Shown here piece after piece: positions 55,199-64,000 of a stretch of DNA of 64,000 nucleotides. A model generated the notes under the pieces. It did not search any database and was not told where the DNA came from. It worked only from the letters and a program-made list of their open reading frames with translations. The stretch is from positions 62,001 through 126,000 of the forward strand of contig JAXHTV010000004.1 in the NCBI GenBank assembly GCA_034189865.1. The letters run 5' to 3'. Made by a program: the position numbers and the translations under genes. The DNA comes from Pseudomonadota bacterium (GTDB lineage: Bacteria > Pseudomonadota > Gammaproteobacteria > UBA5335). Each line of letters opens with the position of its first letter. Position 1 is the first letter of the stretch.

Positions 55199-55525
55199 TC
55201 AGTGCCCCAGCATCCACGGTCGATTACCGGCACCGGTGGAGGCGCGCAGCTGATGACCGCCATGGTTGCATCCTGGGCCGTGGTGGTGTTTCCCATCGCC
55301 GGCCGAGGCGTTTTTTTGCACTTGTTTGGGCTCATGACGCGCCCGTTCGTTGCGCTCGTGGGCGTTCCGAATCGATGGCGATAAAGCGGCCAAACGAGGG
55401 GCGGAAAACACTCTCGGCGAGTCGGTCCCGCAATGCGGGCACGCCGATCCCTCGGACGACTGGGAGAGCCGGCGCAATGTTTCAAAACGACCACAGTGCT
55501 CGCACTCAAACTCGTAGATCGGCAT
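55199..55525 (-). CDS. fmdB: FmdB-family zinc-ribbon protein with His-rich tail
   Basis: The ATG at 55525 gives 108 residues: MPIYEFECEHCGRFETLRRLSQ and ACPHCGTDSPRVFSAPRLAA form the FmdB CxxC...CxxC zinc ribbon. The tail contains GDGKHHHGPGCNHGGHQ, a dense His/Cys run that could bind a metal. FmdB accompanies formamidase genes and has been proposed as a regulator in Methylophilus. It lies 92 nt after fmdA. The frame extends upstream to 55846 only as an antisense-frame shadow of fmdA. Confidence 0.88.
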   Translation of the reverse strand: MPIYEFECEHCGRFETLRRLSQSSEGSACPHCGTDSPRVFSAPRLAALSPSIRNAHERNERARHEPKQVQKNASAGDGKHHHGPGCNHGGHQLRASTGAGNRPWMLGH

Positions 55526-55617
55526 ATTCGCTCCGTTTGGCCATTGCGGCCCTTTTTTGCAACCCACAAAGAAAACACGGACACCGGGAAAATCGGCGCC
55601 GAGGCAACCATGAAACT

Positions 55618-56841
55618 TTAAGACGTGGCCGCGAGATTCACCCCGCTGACGATCGGGGTCGGTCCCGCTGCGGTGGGGTTGACATCGAATTCGAAGATCT
55701 CCGTCGGCACCCACAAGGTTGCGCAGCAATTGGGAATATCCACAATCCCGCTGATGTGGCCCTCTACCGGCGCGGTCCCCAAGATCGCATAGACCTGCTC
55801 CCCGGTGTAGCCGAACTTCTTCAAATATTCGATAGCATTCAAGCAAGCCTGGCGGTAAGAAACATGGGCATCCAGATAATGTTGTTTGCCCGACTCGTCC
55901 ACCGAAATTCCTTCGAATATCAAATAGTCCGAGTACTGCGGGGAGAGGGCGCTGGGTTTAAAAATCGGGTTCTTGACGCCGTATTTGGCCATACCGCCTT
56001 TGATGAGTTGGACCCGCAGATCAATCCATCCCGCCATTTCGATGGCACCACAGAAAGTGATCTCGCCGTCACCTTGGGAAAAGTGAATGTCACCCATCGA
56101 CAAGCCGGCCTCTTTGACGTAGACGGGGAAATACACTTTGGAGCCGCGGGTGAGGTTCTTGATATCGCAGTTGCCGCCGTGCTCCCGCGGCGGCACGGTA
56201 CGGGCCGCTTCGCCAGCAGCCTTCCTGGCCGCATCCGGTGCCATCCGACCCATCAATGCCGTATCGGCGTAGGGCAGTGTCGCCAGCTCCGGAACCCGAT
56301 CGGGGTCTGTCGCAACCAACGCGGCCTCCCGTTTGTTCCACTCGGCCAGCAACTCCGCCGATGGCAAACAACCAATGAGCCCCGGATGCATGATACCGGC
56401 GAAACTCACATCCGGTATGTGTCGCGAACGGGCGTAAATGCCGGGAAACTCCCAGCACGCCTTGCGTGCCTCGGGAAAATGCTCGGTGAGGAAACCGCCG
56501 CCGTTCTCCTTGGCGAATATGCCCGTGAAGCCCCACTCGGAACCGGGCAGTGTGCCGATATCCAGAATATCCACCACCAGCAAATCGCCCGGCTCCGCAC
56601 CCTCCACGCCGATGGGGCCGCTCAGATAATGCACTTTGGTCAAGTCCACATCGCGCACATCGTTGGCCGAGTCATCATCGGCGATCTGCCCACCCGTCCA
56701 ATCGACGCACTCGACGCGAAATTCATCCCCGGGCTTGACCCTCGCAATCATGGGAATATCGGGGTGCCACCGATTGTGGATTACCCCCCCCTGCTCCGCC
56801 GGCGGGAGGTTCACATCGATCTCGATGAGTTTTTTAACCAT
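55618..56841 (-). CDS. fmdA: Formamidase / acetamidase family amidohydrolase
   Basis: The 407-residue protein belongs to the FmdA/AmdA family: KPGDEFRVECVDWTGGQI, VHYLSGPIGVEGAEPGDLLVVDIL, HPGLIGCLPSAELL, EHGGNCDIKNLTRGSKVYFPVYVKEAGLSMGDIHFSQGDGEI, and GIVDIPNCCATLWVP. It hydrolyses formamide or similar short amides to the acid and ammonia. It is downstream of the five transporter genes after a 71-nt gap and upstream of fmdB. Substrate specificity between formamide and acetamide cannot be read here. Confidence 0.93.
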   Translation of the reverse strand: MVKKLIEIDVNLPPAEQGGVIHNRWHPDIPMIARVKPGDEFRVECVDWTGGQIADDDSANDVRDVDLTKVHYLSGPIGVEGAEPGDLLVVDILDIGTLPGSEWGFTGIFAKENGGGFLTEHFPEARKACWEFPGIYARSRHIPDVSFAGIMHPGLIGCLPSAELLAEWNKREAALVATDPDRVPELATLPYADTALMGRMAPDAARKAAGEAARTVPPREHGGNCDIKNLTRGSKVYFPVYVKEAGLSMGDIHFSQGDGEITFCGAIEMAGWIDLRVQLIKGGMAKYGVKNPIFKPSALSPQYSDYLIFEGISVDESGKQHYLDAHVSYRQACLNAIEYLKKFGYTGEQVYAILGTAPVEGHISGIVDIPNCCATLWVPTEIFEFDVNPTAAGPTPIVSGVNLAATS

Positions 56842-56912: not shown

Positions 56913-57605
56913 TTAAACCGATAAGTGACGACTGAGCTGTTCCGCATCGATATCGGCCCGGTTTGCTTCGTGAATCAAGTTGCCTTTCTCGATGACCGCC
57001 ACCCGATCGGCGACCGCCAATGTGAAACTCAGCACTTGTTCGGAGACGACAATGGCGATATCGCGCTGGCGCTTGATTTCGTTCAGCTGCTGGGCGAGAT
57101 CTTTGATAATGGAGGGTTGGATTCCCTCGGTGGGTTCATCCAGCAACAACACCGACGGGTTGCTGGCCAAGGCCCGGGCGATCGCCAACTGCTGCTGCTG
57201 ACCGCCTGAGAGATTTCCGCCCCGCCTTTTGCGCATCTCGAACAGCACGGGAAAAAGCGCATACAACTCGTCGAACGTGGCGGCGGCTGAATCGCCTTTC
57301 GGTATACCGGTTCGGATGTTCTCCTCGACGCTCAGCCGCGGGAAAATCATCCGCCCCTGCGGCACATAAGCCAGACCCCGACGAACCCGTTTGTGGCTGG
57401 GCTCACTGCTCAGCTCCTGGTCGTCGAGCGTGATGGCGCCAGACCGGCTCGGCAGAATCCCAATCAAGGCCTTGAACAACGTGGTCTTGCCCATGCCGTT
57501 GCGTCCGACGATGGCCAATGTCTCTTTGACACGGGCGGCGAAACTCACGCCGCAAATCACTTCGCTCTGGCCGTAACTCACGTGAAGCTGGCTGACCTGC
57601 AGCAT
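56913..57605 (-). CDS. urtE: Urea/short-chain amide ABC transporter ATP-binding protein UrtE-like
   Basis: The 230-residue LivF-type ATPase has Walker A GRNGMGKTTLFKALIG, the signature LSGGQQQQLAIARAL and Walker B VLLLDEPTEGIQPSI, the last typical of UrtE. It starts with VSQLHVSYGQSEVICGVSF. It pairs with UrtD as the second ATPase. The gap to urtD is 11 nt. Confidence 0.94.
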   Translation of the reverse strand: MLQVSQLHVSYGQSEVICGVSFAARVKETLAIVGRNGMGKTTLFKALIGILPSRSGAITLDDQELSSEPSHKRVRRGLAYVPQGRMIFPRLSVEENIRTGIPKGDSAAATFDELYALFPVLFEMRKRRGGNLSGGQQQQLAIARALASNPSVLLLDEPTEGIQPSIIKDLAQQLNEIKRQRDIAIVVSEQVLSFTLAVADRVAVIEKGNLIHEANRADIDAEQLSRHLSV

Positions 57606-57616
57606 GATTGCGCTCC

Positions 57617-58360
57617 TTAATGTCCCAAGTAGGCTTCCACAACCTGGGGATCTGACTTAACCGCCGCCATGCTGCCCTCCTTCAGAATCTTGCCCTGGTG
57701 CAGCACGGTGACTTTGTGGGCGATGGCCTCGACAAAATCCATGTCGTGTTCGATGACGATCACCGAGCGGTTTTGACTGACGCGTTTCAGCAGTTCGGCG
57801 GTCTGTTGCCGTTCGCTCACACTCATACCGGCCACCGGCTCGTCCAACATCAAAAGTTCGGGGTCTTGGATCAGCAACATGCCGATCTCGAGCCACTGTT
57901 TTTGTCCGTGGCTCAGCTGACCGGCCGGCGTGTCCATCAGGTGAGCGAGCCCCAAGTCCTCCGCCGTCTCATGAATTCGCTGTTTAACGAGCGGCGTTCG
58001 CTTGAAGAACAGACTGCCGAACACCGACCGTCCTTCGGGATAGGAGACTTCCAGGTTCTGGTAAACCGTTAGATCGTCGTAGATCGACGGGGTTTGGAAC
58101 TTGCGCGCCACGCCGATACGAACGATTTCATGCTCTTTCATTCGCAACAGTTCACGCCCCGCAAAGTCCACGCGCCCTTCGGATGCCTTGGTCCTGCCGC
58201 AGATGAGATCCAACAGTGTGGTTTTGCCCGCCCCGTTGGGGCCGATAATGACGCGGACCTCGCCCCGGTCGACATACAGATTCACATGATCCACGGCCCG
58301 AAAACCATCGAACGAAACCGTCAGATCCTCAATGGAAAGCAAGAAATCTTGTTGACTCAT
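57617..58360 (-). CDS. urtD: Urea/short-chain amide ABC transporter ATP-binding protein UrtD-like
   Basis: The 247-residue LivG-type ATPase has Walker A IGPNGAGKTTLLDLICG, a variant signature QLSHGQKQWLEIGMLL and Walker B LLMLDEPVAGMSVSERQQTAEL, both typical of UrtD. Its ATG overlaps the urtC stop by 4 nt, so it is coupled to the permease gene. Confidence 0.94.
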   Translation of the reverse strand: MSQQDFLLSIEDLTVSFDGFRAVDHVNLYVDRGEVRVIIGPNGAGKTTLLDLICGRTKASEGRVDFAGRELLRMKEHEIVRIGVARKFQTPSIYDDLTVYQNLEVSYPEGRSVFGSLFFKRTPLVKQRIHETAEDLGLAHLMDTPAGQLSHGQKQWLEIGMLLIQDPELLMLDEPVAGMSVSERQQTAELLKRVSQNRSVIVIEHDMDFVEAIAHKVTVLHQGKILKEGSMAAVKSDPQVVEAYLGH

Positions 58361-59520
58361 ACTTCCCCCTTATGGGCCGAATCGGCTACTCCGAGATCAC
58401 CCGCAAAGGACGGCCGCGCCCAGGCGCGCCAACGCGCTACCCAGTGGGTGGGCCGGGACGAGGTCACCAAGCCCGCCAAGCCTCTGGGGAAAATCAAAAC
58501 CACGGCGACAAACAAAATGCCCATGAGGTAAAGCCACAAATCGGGATAGGACTCGGAGAGATAGGTCTTGCCGAAGTTCACCGCCAAAGTGCCGTAGACC
58601 GCGCCGATGAGCGAAGTTCGACCACCCACCGCAGTAAAGATGACCATCTCGATAGAGGGAACGATGCCGACGAAAGACGGTGACATGAACCCCACTTGCA
58701 GCGTGAACATGGCACCACCGATGGCGGAGAACAGTGCCGCCAGGCAGAACACGAAAATTTTGAGGTTCGCCACATCGTAGCCAGAGAACCGAACCCGATC
58801 CTCCTGGTCTCGCATGGCGACCAACAGCAGGCCCAGCTTGCTGCGCAGCACGGCGTGTCCCAGCAACAGACACGCGAGCAGCAACCCGCCATTGACGAAA
58901 TACAGCACGTAGCGAGCCGCATCCGTGCGGATGTCCCATCCGTGGAGGGTTCTCAGATCCGTGATCCCGTTAATGCCGCCGGTCAATCCCTGCTGGCCGA
59001 TGATCAACACGCTGAGAATCATGGCGATGGCCTGCGTGATGATGGCGAAATAAACGCCGCCGACCCGGCGCTTAAACATGGCGAACCCCAGAAAAAAGGC
59101 GAATAGGGTCGGCACCACCGCCATGGCCACCAGGGTGAAACTGAAACTGTAGAAAGGCTCCCAGAGCAACGGCAGTTCGGTGAGCTGGTTCCAGTCCATG
59201 AAATCGGGAATACCGGGTGTGGACTGAATGGCGGTGTTTTCCGGGGCCGAGGCTTCCAGTTTGAGGAACATCGCCATGCAGTAGCCGCCGAGGCCGAAAA
59301 ATACCCCTTGCCCCAAGCTGAGGATCCCGCCGTACCCCCAGCACAACACCAGCCCGACGGCAACAAAGGCGAATGTCAGGTATTTGCCGATCAGGTTCAA
59401 TCGAAAGATGTCGAACGTCAGTGGGAAAACCACCAGGATCAAGATCCCGACGATCACCAGACCCACCGTAAAGCGGTTTTTTTCGTCCAAAGTCGCCTTC
59501 CAGTTGAGCATGTAGAGCAC
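58357..59520 (-). CDS. urtC: Urea/short-chain amide ABC transporter permease UrtC-like
   Basis: The 387-residue LivM-type permease has about ten hydrophobic segments, with GYGGILSLGQGVFFGLGGYCMAM early and ISLGQ-type loops, a UrtC-characteristic insertion (SAPENTAIQSTPGIPDFMDWNQLTELPLLWEPFYSF) and the EAA-like region later (GTLAVNFGKTYLSESYP). It is separated from urtB by 3 nt. Confidence 0.93.
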   Translation of the reverse strand: MLYMLNWKATLDEKNRFTVGLVIVGILILVVFPLTFDIFRLNLIGKYLTFAFVAVGLVLCWGYGGILSLGQGVFFGLGGYCMAMFLKLEASAPENTAIQSTPGIPDFMDWNQLTELPLLWEPFYSFSFTLVAMAVVPTLFAFFLGFAMFKRRVGGVYFAIITQAIAMILSVLIIGQQGLTGGINGITDLRTLHGWDIRTDAARYVLYFVNGGLLLACLLLGHAVLRSKLGLLLVAMRDQEDRVRFSGYDVANLKIFVFCLAALFSAIGGAMFTLQVGFMSPSFVGIVPSIEMVIFTAVGGRTSLIGAVYGTLAVNFGKTYLSESYPDLWLYLMGILFVAVVLIFPRGLAGLVTSSRPTHWVARWRAWARPSFAGDLGVADSAHKGEV

Positions 59521-59523
59521 CTC

Positions 59524-60441
59524 CTAGCGGCGAACCTTGCTGACGAAAAGCCCTTCGGGACGAATCATCAGCACACCGACCACAAATACCAGCGTAAGAA
59601 CCTTGGCCATGGAGCCGGTCATAAAGAACTCCAGAATCGACTGGGCCTGCCCGATGCTAAAAGCAGACACCACCGTGCCGACGATGCTGGCCGCCCCGCC
59701 GAACACCACCACCAGGAAAGTGTCGACGATATAGAGCGAACCACTGGTGGGACCGGTCGAGGCGATCGTGGTGAACGCTGCCCCGGCAATACCGGCGAAC
59801 CCACAGCCGAACGCGAAAGTCATCCGGTCCACGCCGGCGGTATCGATGCCGACGGCACCGGCAATGGCCCGATTCTGGGTCGTGGCTCGGACCTGGAGGC
59901 CCCAACGCGAACGGAACAGCAATAAACCCACGCCGGCCGTGACCGCCAACGCCAGACCCAACACGAACAGGCCGCTAATGGGTATGTCGATCATCTCCGC
60001 CGGCTGAACCGAACCCATCAGCCAGTCCGGCAAGGCCGGACTGACTTCCCGGGCGCCGAATGACTGACGGAAAATTTGCTGCAAAATCAGGCTCACACCC
60101 CACGTCGCCAGCAAAGTATCAAGTGGACGCGCGTAGAGGTGTCTGATGATGAAATACTCCAGCACCCACCCCACGGCGGCTGCCACCAAGAACGCCGCAA
60201 CCAAGGCGAACAAAAAGTACTCATCCAGAAAGTCATAACGTTCAGCGATGGTCGAAAGCAGGTAGGTGGTGTAAGCACCGATAGCCATGAACTCGCCATG
60301 CGCCATGTTGATGACGCCCATCTGACCGAAGATAATCGCCAGACCCAGCGCCATGAGCAGCAACACGCTAAACAGGCTCAATCCGGCGAAACCTTGCATG
60401 ATCAGGATCGCGAACATCTCCGAAGTATTGAGATCGCTCAT
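59524..60441 (-). CDS. urtB: Urea/short-chain amide ABC transporter permease UrtB-like
   Basis: The 305-residue LivH-type permease begins in SLFSVLLLMALGLAIIFGQMGVINMAHGEFMAIGAY, the classical LivH signature, followed by further helices and the loop GVQVRATTQNRAIAGAVGIDTAGVDRMTFAFG. No urea-specific N-terminal extension is present, so this is a standard 305-aa permease. It is downstream of urtA after an 89-nt gap. Confidence 0.93.
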   Translation of the reverse strand: MSDLNTSEMFAILIMQGFAGLSLFSVLLLMALGLAIIFGQMGVINMAHGEFMAIGAYTTYLLSTIAERYDFLDEYFLFALVAAFLVAAAVGWVLEYFIIRHLYARPLDTLLATWGVSLILQQIFRQSFGAREVSPALPDWLMGSVQPAEMIDIPISGLFVLGLALAVTAGVGLLLFRSRWGLQVRATTQNRAIAGAVGIDTAGVDRMTFAFGCGFAGIAGAAFTTIASTGPTSGSLYIVDTFLVVVFGGAASIVGTVVSAFSIGQAQSILEFFMTGSMAKVLTLVFVVGVLMIRPEGLFVSKVRR

Positions 60442-60530: not shown

Positions 60531-61778
60531 CTACTGATAACCCTCGGGGAACGGATCCGGCTCGATCAGCCCGGACTCATAGACGACATCCACTTGGCCG
60601 TCTTTACGCCAACGTCCGACCCGCAACTTGCTCCACAAGTGGTGGTTGGGATGAACCTTGACGTAACCTTCCGGTGCGGTATCCAACTCGATGTCAGGAG
60701 AAGCCGCGACAACCTTGTCCACATCAAAACTCCCGGCGCGTTCGACCGCCGCCTTCCATAACCAGGGCCCCAGATAAGCCGCCTGGGTGACATCACCAAT
60801 GACGCTGTCCTCGCCATACTTATCCTTGAACGCCGCGACGAAAGCTTCGTTATTGGGGTTATCCAAAGTTTGGAAGTACTTCATTGCCGAGTAGAAGCCC
60901 TCGACGTTTTCACCGCCGATTCCCTTGACCTCGTCTTCAGTGGTGGAGATGGTGAGCAACGTCCACTTGTCGCCGGTGATGCCGGCGGCCTTGAGTTGTT
61001 TAAACCAGGACACATTGCTGCCGCCGACGACGATGCTGTAAATCACGTCTGGCTTGCGCAGCTTGATTTTGTTGATGAGCGAGCGAAAGTTGGTGTGACC
61101 CAGCGGGTAGTACTCCTCGCCAACCACCTTGCCCTTCAGGACGTTCTCGATATGTTTACGGGCGATTTTGTTGGAGGTGCGCGGCCAGATGTAATCCGAC
61201 CCGATGAGAAAGAAGGTCTTGGCGTCTTTTTCTTCGGCCACCCAATCCAGACCGGCGATGATTTGCTGCGTGGCCTCCTGACCGGTGTAAATCACATTCT
61301 TGGATTGCTCCAGGCCCTCATAGAAGGTCGGGTAATAGAGCAGGCCGTTTTCTTTCTCGAACACCGGCAGGACTGCTTTGCGCGACGCCGATGTCCAACA
61401 CCCGAAGACCGTCGCGACCCGATCGTTGACCAGCAGCTTGCGGGATTTTTCAGCGAAGGTCGGCCAGTCGCTGGCGCCGTCTTCTTTGATCACCTTAATC
61501 TGCCGCCCCAGTACGCCACCCATGGCGTTGATCTGTTCGATGGCCAAAAGCTCGGCCTGAATCGAGCCGATCTCGCTGATGGCCATGGTGCCGGTGGCGG
61601 AATGCAGATCACCGACCGTGACCGTGGTATCGGTGACCGCCAATCCGGTGGTGTTGACTTCACTGGTGGGATACTCGGTTGCGTGTCCGGGCGCCGCCAG
61701 CCACGTCGCCGCGAGAATCGCCAGCGCTGAACTGCGCCAGCGCCGGAAGCAAGTCAGTCGGGTCTTGGTCGTCGTCAT
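60531..61778 (-). CDS. urtA: Urea/short-chain amide ABC transporter substrate-binding protein
   Basis: The 415-residue periplasmic binding protein has a signal peptide (FRRWRSSALAILAATWLAAPGHA) and the UrtA/AmiC/FmdD features: VTVGDLHSATGTMAISE, GCWTSASRKAVLPVFEKENGLLYYPTFYEG, FLIGSDYIWPRTSN, EEYYPLGHTNF and EGFYSAMKYFQTLDNP. UrtA and FmdD (amide-binding) are close relatives; the downstream formamidase favours an amide ligand, or both. It is the first gene of urtABCDE-fmdAB and has GAGGAGC at good spacing before the ATG. Confidence 0.93.
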   Translation of the reverse strand: MTTTKTRLTCFRRWRSSALAILAATWLAAPGHATEYPTSEVNTTGLAVTDTTVTVGDLHSATGTMAISEIGSIQAELLAIEQINAMGGVLGRQIKVIKEDGASDWPTFAEKSRKLLVNDRVATVFGCWTSASRKAVLPVFEKENGLLYYPTFYEGLEQSKNVIYTGQEATQQIIAGLDWVAEEKDAKTFFLIGSDYIWPRTSNKIARKHIENVLKGKVVGEEYYPLGHTNFRSLINKIKLRKPDVIYSIVVGGSNVSWFKQLKAAGITGDKWTLLTISTTEDEVKGIGGENVEGFYSAMKYFQTLDNPNNEAFVAAFKDKYGEDSVIGDVTQAAYLGPWLWKAAVERAGSFDVDKVVAASPDIELDTAPEGYVKVHPNHHLWSKLRVGRWRKDGQVDVVYESGLIEPDPFPEGYQ

Positions 61779-61954: not shown

Positions 61955-61972
61955 ATACGTCAATTGACGTAT
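61955..61972. promoter_or_regulatory. Perfect 18-bp palindrome ATACGTCAATTGACGTAT
   Basis: The 18 bases are fully self-complementary with no central spacer, and lie roughly mid-way in the 475-bp divergent region. The A+T-rich flanks and full symmetry fit a dimeric regulator site, for example a response regulator of the adjacent sensor. Confidence 0.6.
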
Positions 61973-62253: not shown

Positions 62254-64000
62254 ATGCCGCTCCAAATCGTCAAAACCCGGCGGGACTACAACGCCTGGGT
62301 CGCCAACGAGATGCTGGAAGACTACGCACTGCGTTACGCGCCGCGGTCTTTTCGCAAATGGTCGGAGTTTCGTGTCGCCAACACCGCCCTGGGCTCGATC
62401 TCGTTTCTCGCGTTGGAAGCCATCGGCGGCACGCTCACGCTCGCTTACGGTTTTACCAACGCGTTTTGGGCCATTCTCGCCGTCAGTATCATCATCTTCC
62501 TCACCGGCCTGCCCATCAGCTACTACGCTGCCCGCTACAACATCGACGTCGATTTACTCACGCGCGGCGCCGGCTTCGGCTATATCGGCTCGACCATCAC
62601 CTCGCTGATTTACGCCTCGTTCACCTTCATCTTCTTTGCGCTGGAAGCCGCCATCATGTCGCTGGCGCTGAGTTTGTACTTTGACATCCCCATCGCACTG
62701 TCTTATGTCATCAGCGCGCTCGTGGTCATCCCGCTGGTTCTGTTCGGAATCACCTGGATCAGCCGCTTTCAACTGATCACCCAGCCTATCTGGCTCATTC
62801 TTTTGTTTCTGCCGTACTTCGCGGTGATGCACCAAAATCCCGGCTTGCTCAGCGATTTGCTGACCTTCCGCGGTCAATCGGAAAATGGCACTGAGTTTGA
62901 TCCGCTACTATTCGGCGCAGCCAGCGCCGTTGCCTTTGCCCTCATCGCCCAGATTGGTGAGCAGGCGGACTTTCTGCGATTCCTCCCGGATCTGACAGCG
63001 AAAAACCGCTACCGGTGGTGGAGTGCGATGCTGCTGGCCGGGCCGGGTTGGATCGTGTTGGGTTTCGCCAAACTGCTCGGCGGCGCATTTTTGGCGTTTG
63101 TGGCCATTCAGCACCAAGTGATGCCGGAAAAAGCCGTCGAGCCGACGCAAATGTATCTGGTGGTCTTTCAGTATGTGTTTCCTGACCCCGCCGACGCGTT
63201 ATTGATCGCCACAATCTTCGTGCTGATCTCGCAACTGAAAATCAATGTCACCAATGCCTACGCCGGGTCGCTGGCCTGGTCCAATTTCTTCTCCCGGCTG
63301 ACCCACAACCACCCCGGCCGGGTGGTGTGGCTGGTGTTGAACGTGCTCATCGCCCTGCTGCTGATGATGTTGGGCGTATTCGAAACCCTGGAGAATGTCC
63401 TCGGCCTCTACGCCAATGTCGCCATCGCCTGGGTCGGGGCGCTGGTCGCGGATTTGGTCATCAACAAACCGTTAGGACTGAGCCCCGCGCGGATCGAGTT
63501 TCGGCGGGCCTATCTGCATGACATCAACCCGGTCGGTGTCGGGGCCATGGGCATCGCCTCAATCCTATCTCTGTGCGCCTATTTGGGGTTCTTTGGAACG
63601 GTGGCGGCGGCCTTCGCCCCCTATATTGCCTTGACGGCGGCTTTTGTCTCGGCACCGGCGATCGCCTGGATCACCGGCGGGCGCTACTACATCGCGGAGC
63701 GGACCGAGCCCGATCGACCCTATGATCAAGCGGCGCAGGCTTGCACCGTATGCGGCAAGCATTACGAACACGAAGATACCGCCTTCTGTCCGGCCTATCG
63801 CGGACCGATCTGCTCCCTTTGCTGCACACTCGACGCCCGCTGCGAAGATGCGTGCAAGCAAACGCCCCGGTTCAGCGAATTGCTCGGACGGCTTTTACCC
63901 AGAGCAACTCGCGGCTATTTGTCACCCAAGACCAGCCGAAATTTCGTCGAGTATATGCTCGTTCTCGGCAGCATCAGTGCGCTGATGGCCATCACCTTTT
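62254..64000 (+). CDS. NCS1 permease-like protein with cysteine cluster, probable transporter-type sensor (runs past window end)
   Basis: The ATG at 62254 opens a frame without a stop for 582 codons to the window edge. Residues 1 to about 470 form a 12-helix-like domain resembling the NCS1 purine/cytosine permease family: an N-terminal EDYALRYAPRSFRKWSEFR, GSISFLALEAIGGTLTLAYGF, LTRGAGFGYIGSTITSLIYAS, IAQIGEQADFLRFLPD and NVTNAYAGSLAWSNFFSRL. Residues 497-534 contain nine cysteines in C-x2-C-x11-C-x7-C-x2-CC-x5-C-x3-C. A new hydrophobic segment begins at about residue 565 (FVEYMLVLGSISALMAIT). True NCS1 transporters end near 450-500 aa, so the frame continues as something else; a histidine kinase is my inference. 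It is divergent from the amide operon. Confidence 0.85.
   Translation, partial: MPLQIVKTRRDYNAWVANEMLEDYALRYAPRSFRKWSEFRVANTALGSISFLALEAIGGTLTLAYGFTNAFWAILAVSIIIFLTGLPISYYAARYNIDVDLLTRGAGFGYIGSTITSLIYASFTFIFFALEAAIMSLALSLYFDIPIALSYVISALVVIPLVLFGITWISRFQLITQPIWLILLFLPYFAVMHQNPGLLSDLLTFRGQSENGTEFDPLLFGAASAVAFALIAQIGEQADFLRFLPDLTAKNRYRWWSAMLLAGPGWIVLGFAKLLGGAFLAFVAIQHQVMPEKAVEPTQMYLVVFQYVFPDPADALLIATIFVLISQLKINVTNAYAGSLAWSNFFSRLTHNHPGRVVWLVLNVLIALLLMMLGVFETLENVLGLYANVAIAWVGALVADLVINKPLGLSPARIEFRRAYLHDINPVGVGAMGIASILSLCAYLGFFGTVAAAFAPYIALTAAFVSAPAIAWITGGRYYIAERTEPDRPYDQAAQACTVCGKHYEHEDTAFCPAYRGPICSLCCTLDARCEDACKQTPRFSELLGRLLPRATRGYLSPKTSRNFVEYMLVLGSISALMAITF

Follow-up and report, generated by a model that had tools for sequence, protein, structure and literature searches.

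The window, a stretch of 64,000 nucleotides, contains the 5′ part of a gene for a hybrid histidine kinase whose N-terminal sensor is a transporter fold of the NCS1 family, followed by a module of eight invariant cysteines. The gene is divergent from the urea/short-chain amide operon urtABCDE-fmdAB, with an inverted repeat between the two. The protein is probably a transporter-derived urea/amide sensor kinase of the 'transceptor' type, which would induce urtABCDE-fmdAB through its partner response regulator bound at this repeat.

Gene and domain organization of the kinase

The features of the kinase gene that fall within the window are as follows.

62254..64000, + strand: NCS1-Cys-hybrid histidine kinase gene, 5′ part (runs on to window-numbered 65451)
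62254..63693, + strand: NCS1 transporter-fold domain, residues 1-480 (AlphaFold2 model closest to CodB and Mhp1; hhalign E 2e-38)
62950..62982, + strand: QIGEQADFLRF, subfamily signature at residues 233-243 (5 residues inserted compared with ordinary NCS1 proteins)
63742..63855, + strand: eight-cysteine module C497-C534 (invariance 65/65; treble-clef-like model; site-wise loss in transporters)
63940..64000, + strand: beginning of the first helix of a transmembrane pair linking the Cys module to the kinase (hydropathy, AlphaFold2 helices)

The reading frame opens at ATG 62254 and runs uninterrupted through 582 codons to the end of the window, as the earlier note had described. Read on in the host contig, which belongs to a 2.9-Mb genome, it closes only at window-numbered 65451. 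The whole gene (contig C4:124254-127451; L002:2755-5952) encodes 1,065 amino acids from this ATG; a GTG located 16 codons upstream is an alternative start. The open frame had been taken to announce a signalling protein. There is indeed no early stop past 64000, and HisKA, HATPase_c and receiver domains were all detected there above the Pfam cut-offs, whereas Pfam detected no PAS domain, which had also been considered. Catalytic residues are in place and conserved, namely the phospho-accepting histidine, the N-box, the G-box and the receiver Asp and Lys. Judged by its domains and catalytic residues, the protein is a hybrid histidine kinase.

The new hydrophobic segment noticed after the cysteines spans residues ~563-595 and is followed by a second one at residues ~608-629. 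Both hydropathy and the AlphaFold2 model place two transmembrane helices here, linking the cysteines to the kinase. The earlier argument that a plain permease would have ended before this point holds in part: stand-alone permeases of the same subfamily bear the same cysteine tail, but they stop just past it.

An 11-base overlap joins the kinase gene to the next one, whose product of 349 amino acids is a LuxR-type response regulator of the NarL/FixJ kind, with receiver and GerE domains that both score above the Pfam cut-off. A different arrangement occurs at L102:6134-10656 and L104:6151-10847, where shorter kinases (885-894 amino acids) without a receiver adjoin fmdA and are accompanied by different, non-LuxR response regulators. 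This arrangement would be an alternative output for the same sensor.

The NCS1 domain

The designation of the N-terminal part as NCS1-like was correct, although the relationship is remote. A plain Pfam HMMER search gave no match to PF02133/NCS1 in the window protein, and an HMMER search of the PDB with the NCS1 domain returned nothing for it. The assignment was therefore re-tested by profile-profile comparison and by structure. An AlphaFold2 model built from 35 sequences has a mean pLDDT of 81, and its best PDB matches in Foldseek are CodB (TM 0.78 by target length) and Mhp1. Comparison of the domain profile with ordinary NCS1 proteins by hhalign gave an E value of 2e-38. A joint profile, which itself includes ordinary NCS1 sequences, finds CodB at 5e-19 and Mhp1 at 3e-12. 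Structures of the SSS family rank below NCS1 structures in Foldseek, and the sequence matches of the joint profile are to NCS1 only. PF02133 scores above its cut-off in one stand-alone relative (37.7 vs 23.5 bits). The window protein represents a divergent NCS1 subfamily that lies below the reach of the PF02133 model.

The subfamily shares its fold and the TM8 pattern (Q-INV-N-YS-S) with CodB and Mhp1. Unlike these, the window protein has a kinase fusion, a cysteine tail, a urea/amide gene context and a 5-residue insertion in TM6. This insertion, QIGEQxD(F/Y)LRF, occurs with minor differences in kinases and stand-alone transporters alike and is missing in the ordinary NCS1 proteins compared. 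Across the N-terminal part, 65 full-length relatives are ~49-63% identical to the window protein.

The eight-cysteine module

The earlier note described a nine-cysteine domain. The residues that it listed, C497, C500, C512, C520, C523, C524, C530 and C534, are all present; the cluster nevertheless comprises eight cysteines, not nine, and the ninth cysteine of the first 582 residues, C441, is located inside a transmembrane helix. All eight are identical in the 65/65 full-length kinase relatives, a sequence conservation that is beyond chance. In the AlphaFold2 model the module consists of two short strands, a hairpin and a helix, with the knuckle-hairpin-helix arrangement of treble-clef zinc fingers. 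Foldseek gave weak, non-significant matches (E ~1), mostly to cross-brace zinc domains.

Comparison with kinase-free transporters suggests how the cysteines are grouped. The stand-alone transporters of L061 and Methylovirgula carry the complete module and end soon after it. Those of Acinetobacter, Klebsiella and Moraxella keep only C497, C500, C520 and C523, with C512, C524, C530 and C534 lost together, and the Tsukamurella transporter has lost nearly all module cysteines. Since sets of four are retained or lost as groups, we propose two four-cysteine sites, site 1 formed by C497, C500, C520 and C523, and site 2 by C512, C524, C530 and C534. On the predicted structure, the module is probably a two-site treble-clef that binds zinc. 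A ferredoxin-like reading is not favoured, because of the predicted knuckle-hairpin-helix and because some transporters retain one set of four cysteines without the other.

The occurrence of the module in kinase-free transporters also means that it belongs to the transporter subfamily, independently of the kinase. This bears on the earlier proposal that the cysteines report metal or redox state. Given that kinase-free transporters share the module and lose its sites stepwise, a zinc site with a structural or coupling role seems the likelier reading. A rival explanation would make the Cys module the true sensor of a metal (zinc, nickel) or of redox state, and reduce the NCS1 domain to a membrane anchor or a secondary input. 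The strict invariance of the cysteines in the kinases and its relaxation in the transporters agree with such a role, as does the association of some kinases with nickel-dependent urease loci, which they would control. However, a module that also ends kinase-free transporters is not an input specific to kinases, and among the 65 kinases the membrane residues of the NCS1 domain, those of the IGEQ and TM8 motifs included, are as invariant as the eight cysteines. Moreover, most loci would control uptake and FmdA, which is no urease. We consider a cysteine-based sensor unlikely.

The urt-fmd operon and the neighbourhoods of kinase relatives

The divergent operon and the intergenic repeat comprise the following features.

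61956..61971, unstranded: inverted repeat TACGTCA-AT-TGACGTA, located 178 bases upstream of urtA and proposed as operator of the response regulator
60531..61778, - strand: urtA, urea/amide ABC transporter binding protein (TIGR03407 above cut-off)
59524..60441, - strand: urtB (TIGR03409 above cut-off)
58357..59520, - strand: urtC (TIGR03408 above cut-off)
57617..58360, - strand: urtD (TIGR03411 above cut-off)
56913..57605, - strand: urtE (TIGR03410 above cut-off)
55618..56841, - strand: fmdA, formamidase (NF045496, 768.5 bits vs cut-off 500)
55199..55531 (as searched; start approximate), - strand: fmdB-like zinc ribbon protein (TIGR02605 and PF09723 above cut-off)

Curated models place all five Urt proteins and FmdA in their respective families. 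The fmd genes of M. methylotrophus are induced by formamide and urea (PMC10781810), veronii carrying amiE-fmdA-fmdB-urt grows on acetamide and formamide (PMC13209695), and an earlier analysis argued that urt adjoining fmdA and amiE carries amides (PMC3098086). The host genome encodes urease and urea carboxylase at other loci; the host enzymes therefore do not narrow the ligand, which may be urea. Beyond the window, two adjacent small genes (L002:10883-12128) resemble, by eye, a toxin-antitoxin pair of the RES-Xre type.

None of eight other genomes yielded a relative when searched for the same gene order, and conservation was therefore judged on class, phylum and plasmid samples. Relatives are present in 18/369 class genomes and 58/398 phylum genomes sampled, both numbers including a few stand-alone or ordinary NCS1 matches; kinase-bearing genomes make up ~4% of the class sample and ~12% of the phylum sample. 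Relatives were also found on 539 plasmid records, 342 of them from Klebsiella. Genes from 66 neighbourhoods were grouped by our own clustering, and neighbours within 12 kb were counted for 65 kinases. A response regulator adjoins 59/65 kinases. Within this distance urt is found near 49 kinases, fmdA near 35, urease near 16 and amiE near 15, at least one of the four accompanying 56/65, although these counts overstate independent events, as related loci share the dyad and the gene order by descent. The remaining 9/65 are apart from all four. In annotated Paraburkholderia and Klebsiella IncFIB plasmid records, urtABCDE-fmdA is divergent from the kinase and regulator genes.

Other genes accompany some of these loci. 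Many Klebsiella plasmids (L120 and the 342 records) bear the kinase-regulator pair together with urtABCDE-fmdA, for example an IncFIB plasmid where it adjoins clpK-hsp20 heat-resistance genes. A gene of ~410 codons upstream of urtA (L069:8912-10156, with relatives in L004, L005, L063, L067 and L106) has no Pfam match; its product has a signal-peptide-like start and a strand-rich sequence, and is perhaps an outer-membrane porin like FmdC. In several clusters, a gene for a ClpB-like AAA protein (AAA_2 plus ClpB_D2-small) adjoins amiE and fmdA; it was seen at L100:17439-18482 as well as at six further loci.

An inverted repeat between urtA and the kinase gene

Counting of dyads upstream of the kinases revealed a 7-2-7 dyad, ATACGTCA-N2-TGACGTAT, between urtA and the kinase gene. 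The copy at 61956-61971 is the only exact one in the host genome. With at most one mismatch, 26 matches were found in 1.29 Mb of neighbourhood sequence, compared to 0-2 for twelve shuffled palindromes. These matches lie mostly just upstream of urtA or the kinase gene, several lie upstream of fmdA, and in L061 the dyad separates the kinase from the stand-alone transporter. When up to two mismatches are allowed, the dyad is present in 26/65 kinase upstream regions and in none of 20 shuffled sets. Inclusion of the ATACG-N8-CGTAT form raises this to 43/65 (1.6 expected), about a third of the regions having no clear dyad. The inner bases co-vary symmetrically, above any of 2,000 permutations. Finally, near-exact sites occur in 7/16 class genomes with the kinase but in 12/353 without it (p = 2.5e-6).

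NarL-type regulators use inverted heptamers with 7-2-7 spacing, and we propose that the dyad is the operator of the partner regulator. The recognition helix (TVNKH) has N in regulators found at consensus dyads, and D or T in most of those at the ATACGC variant; this match between helix residue and dyad variant could also come from shared ancestry. A sigma-70 promoter scan of the urtA-kinase intergenic region returned no site.

Alternatively, the operon could be controlled otherwise, by FmdB or by general nitrogen control, while the kinase-regulator pair governs other genes or only itself. A putative role in positive regulation has been ascribed to FmdB in M. methylotrophus (PMC10781810; PMC13209695), and the nine kinases apart from urt, fmd, ami and ure genes would fit such a scheme. 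However, the dyad recurs upstream of urtA and fmdA in several genomes, its sole exact copy in the host sits in the gap between urtA and the kinase gene, and the site is commoner in kinase-bearing genomes. Control by other means is thus improbable. Kinase control of the divergent operon, as originally suggested, is supported by a gene order kept in dozens of genomes and by the shared operator-like dyad. It is very likely, on this genomic evidence, that the kinase switches on the neighbouring genes for uptake and breakdown of urea and formamide.

Stand-alone transporters of the same subfamily

Urease adjoins the stand-alone subfamily transporters of A. johnsonii and K. pneumoniae, and fmdA adjoins or is near those of Moraxella and Tsukamurella. 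The Methylovirgula transporter adjoins the kinase, fmdA and amiE, and in L061 a stand-alone transporter takes the place of urt; one Streptomyces relative has no urease- or fmdA-type neighbours. In a quick-method tree with a distant outgroup and no safe root, a single clade of transporters stands apart from the kinases (support 98), so that one fusion or one loss is enough.

Two loci merit a separate description. The K. pneumoniae 'cytosine permease' encoded downstream of ureDABCEFG, as the last gene of the urease operon (L168:6983-8590), belongs to the NCS1 subfamily of the sensor, is ~47% identical to it and has a four-cysteine tail. This permease may import urea. In Acinetobacter baumannii (L172:8344-13614), the kinase and a stand-alone transporter are divergent neighbours, urt, fmdA and urease not being nearby, and the target of this kinase may be the transporter itself.

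One further alternative is very improbable, namely that the sensor reads cytosine, allantoin, hydantoin or some other product of nucleobase breakdown, as expected of a classical NCS1 protein, and that the urea/amide genes are induced as a downstream part of that pathway. It would agree with the CodB/Mhp1 fold and with the annotation of stand-alone relatives as cytosine or allantoin permeases. Against it, the genes that recur nearby are of the urt, fmd, ami and ure types; no gene for nucleobases, hydantoin or allantoin was recognised in this set, and the subfamily has its own TM6 insertion.

Proposed mechanism

In the mechanism that we favour, the NCS1 domain of the urea/amide sensor kinase would bind urea or a short-chain amide (formamide, acetamide), which it perhaps still transports. 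The change induced by binding would be transmitted through the cytoplasmic eight-cysteine module, probably holding two zinc ions, and the transmembrane hairpin to the dimeric kinase. As the catalytic residues are intact and the genes overlap, we infer that phosphate passes from the kinase to the co-encoded NarL/LuxR-type regulator, either directly or through the kinase's own receiver. The regulator would then bind the 7-2-7 dyad between urtA and the kinase gene and activate urtABCDE-fmdAB. As a result, uptake and hydrolysis functions would be made only when the substrate is present.

A more far-reaching version can be put forward tentatively. The protein could be a complete NCS1 symporter with a two-zinc tail, a true transceptor that both transports and signals urea or amides, the zinc module acting as a mechanical coupler or a second input. 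It would then define a third class of transporter-derived sensor kinases, and its subfamily a new urea/short-amide branch of NCS1 that serves for urea import at the urease loci of Klebsiella and Acinetobacter.

Relation to known sensor kinases

Fusions of transporters to kinases are already known from the SLC5/STAC sensor kinases CbrA, CrbS/MxtR, RpuS and PrlS (PMC7918813; PMC13022988). As in these, a whole LeuT-type transporter fold is joined via a cytoplasmic linker domain to a histidine kinase; nutrient genes are controlled in both cases, presumptively so here, and some SLC5/STAC kinases are hybrid with a LuxR-type partner (PMC7918813; PMC13022988). In contrast, the transporter of the window protein is NCS1 instead of SLC5, its linker is the eight-cysteine module followed by two transmembrane helices, and the PAS domain is lacking by Pfam. 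The Cys module occupies the STAC position, and Pfam reported no STAC domain, a result that depends on the library having a STAC model. Because its transporter fold is NCS1, the window protein falls outside the SLC5/STAC family. By analogy, we propose that it works like these kinases. A further parallel is Ks-Amt5, likewise a nitrogen-nutrient transporter turned histidine-kinase sensor, in this case for ammonium, which was shown experimentally to bind but not to move its ligand (PMC5764959); its fold is Amt, unlike that of the window protein.

Dechloromonas (PMC2907700) and Ectopseudomonas (PMC13296017) also have kinase-regulator pairs next to urt, in the same neighbourhood, and the Dechloromonas pair has the same protein sizes (1,131 and 308 amino acids; PMC2907700). 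In the passages concerned, the pairs appear only by name, in gene lists or legends, with no description of an NCS1 domain, a Cys module or an operator. A literature search in which subscription journals were thinly covered found no account of an NCS1-kinase, its cysteine module or its operator.

NCS1 would thus join the few folds known as kinase sensors (SLC5, Amt), together with a conserved cysteine coupling module. The regulator and dyad are a candidate regulator and operator for the use of urea and formamide; the literature found on such clusters names none beyond FmdB. The 'cytosine permease' and 'allantoin permease' genes beside urease, as in K. pneumoniae, are suggested to import urea or amides. 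More generally, these results point to an unstudied NCS1-type sensor that is widespread across Pseudomonadota.
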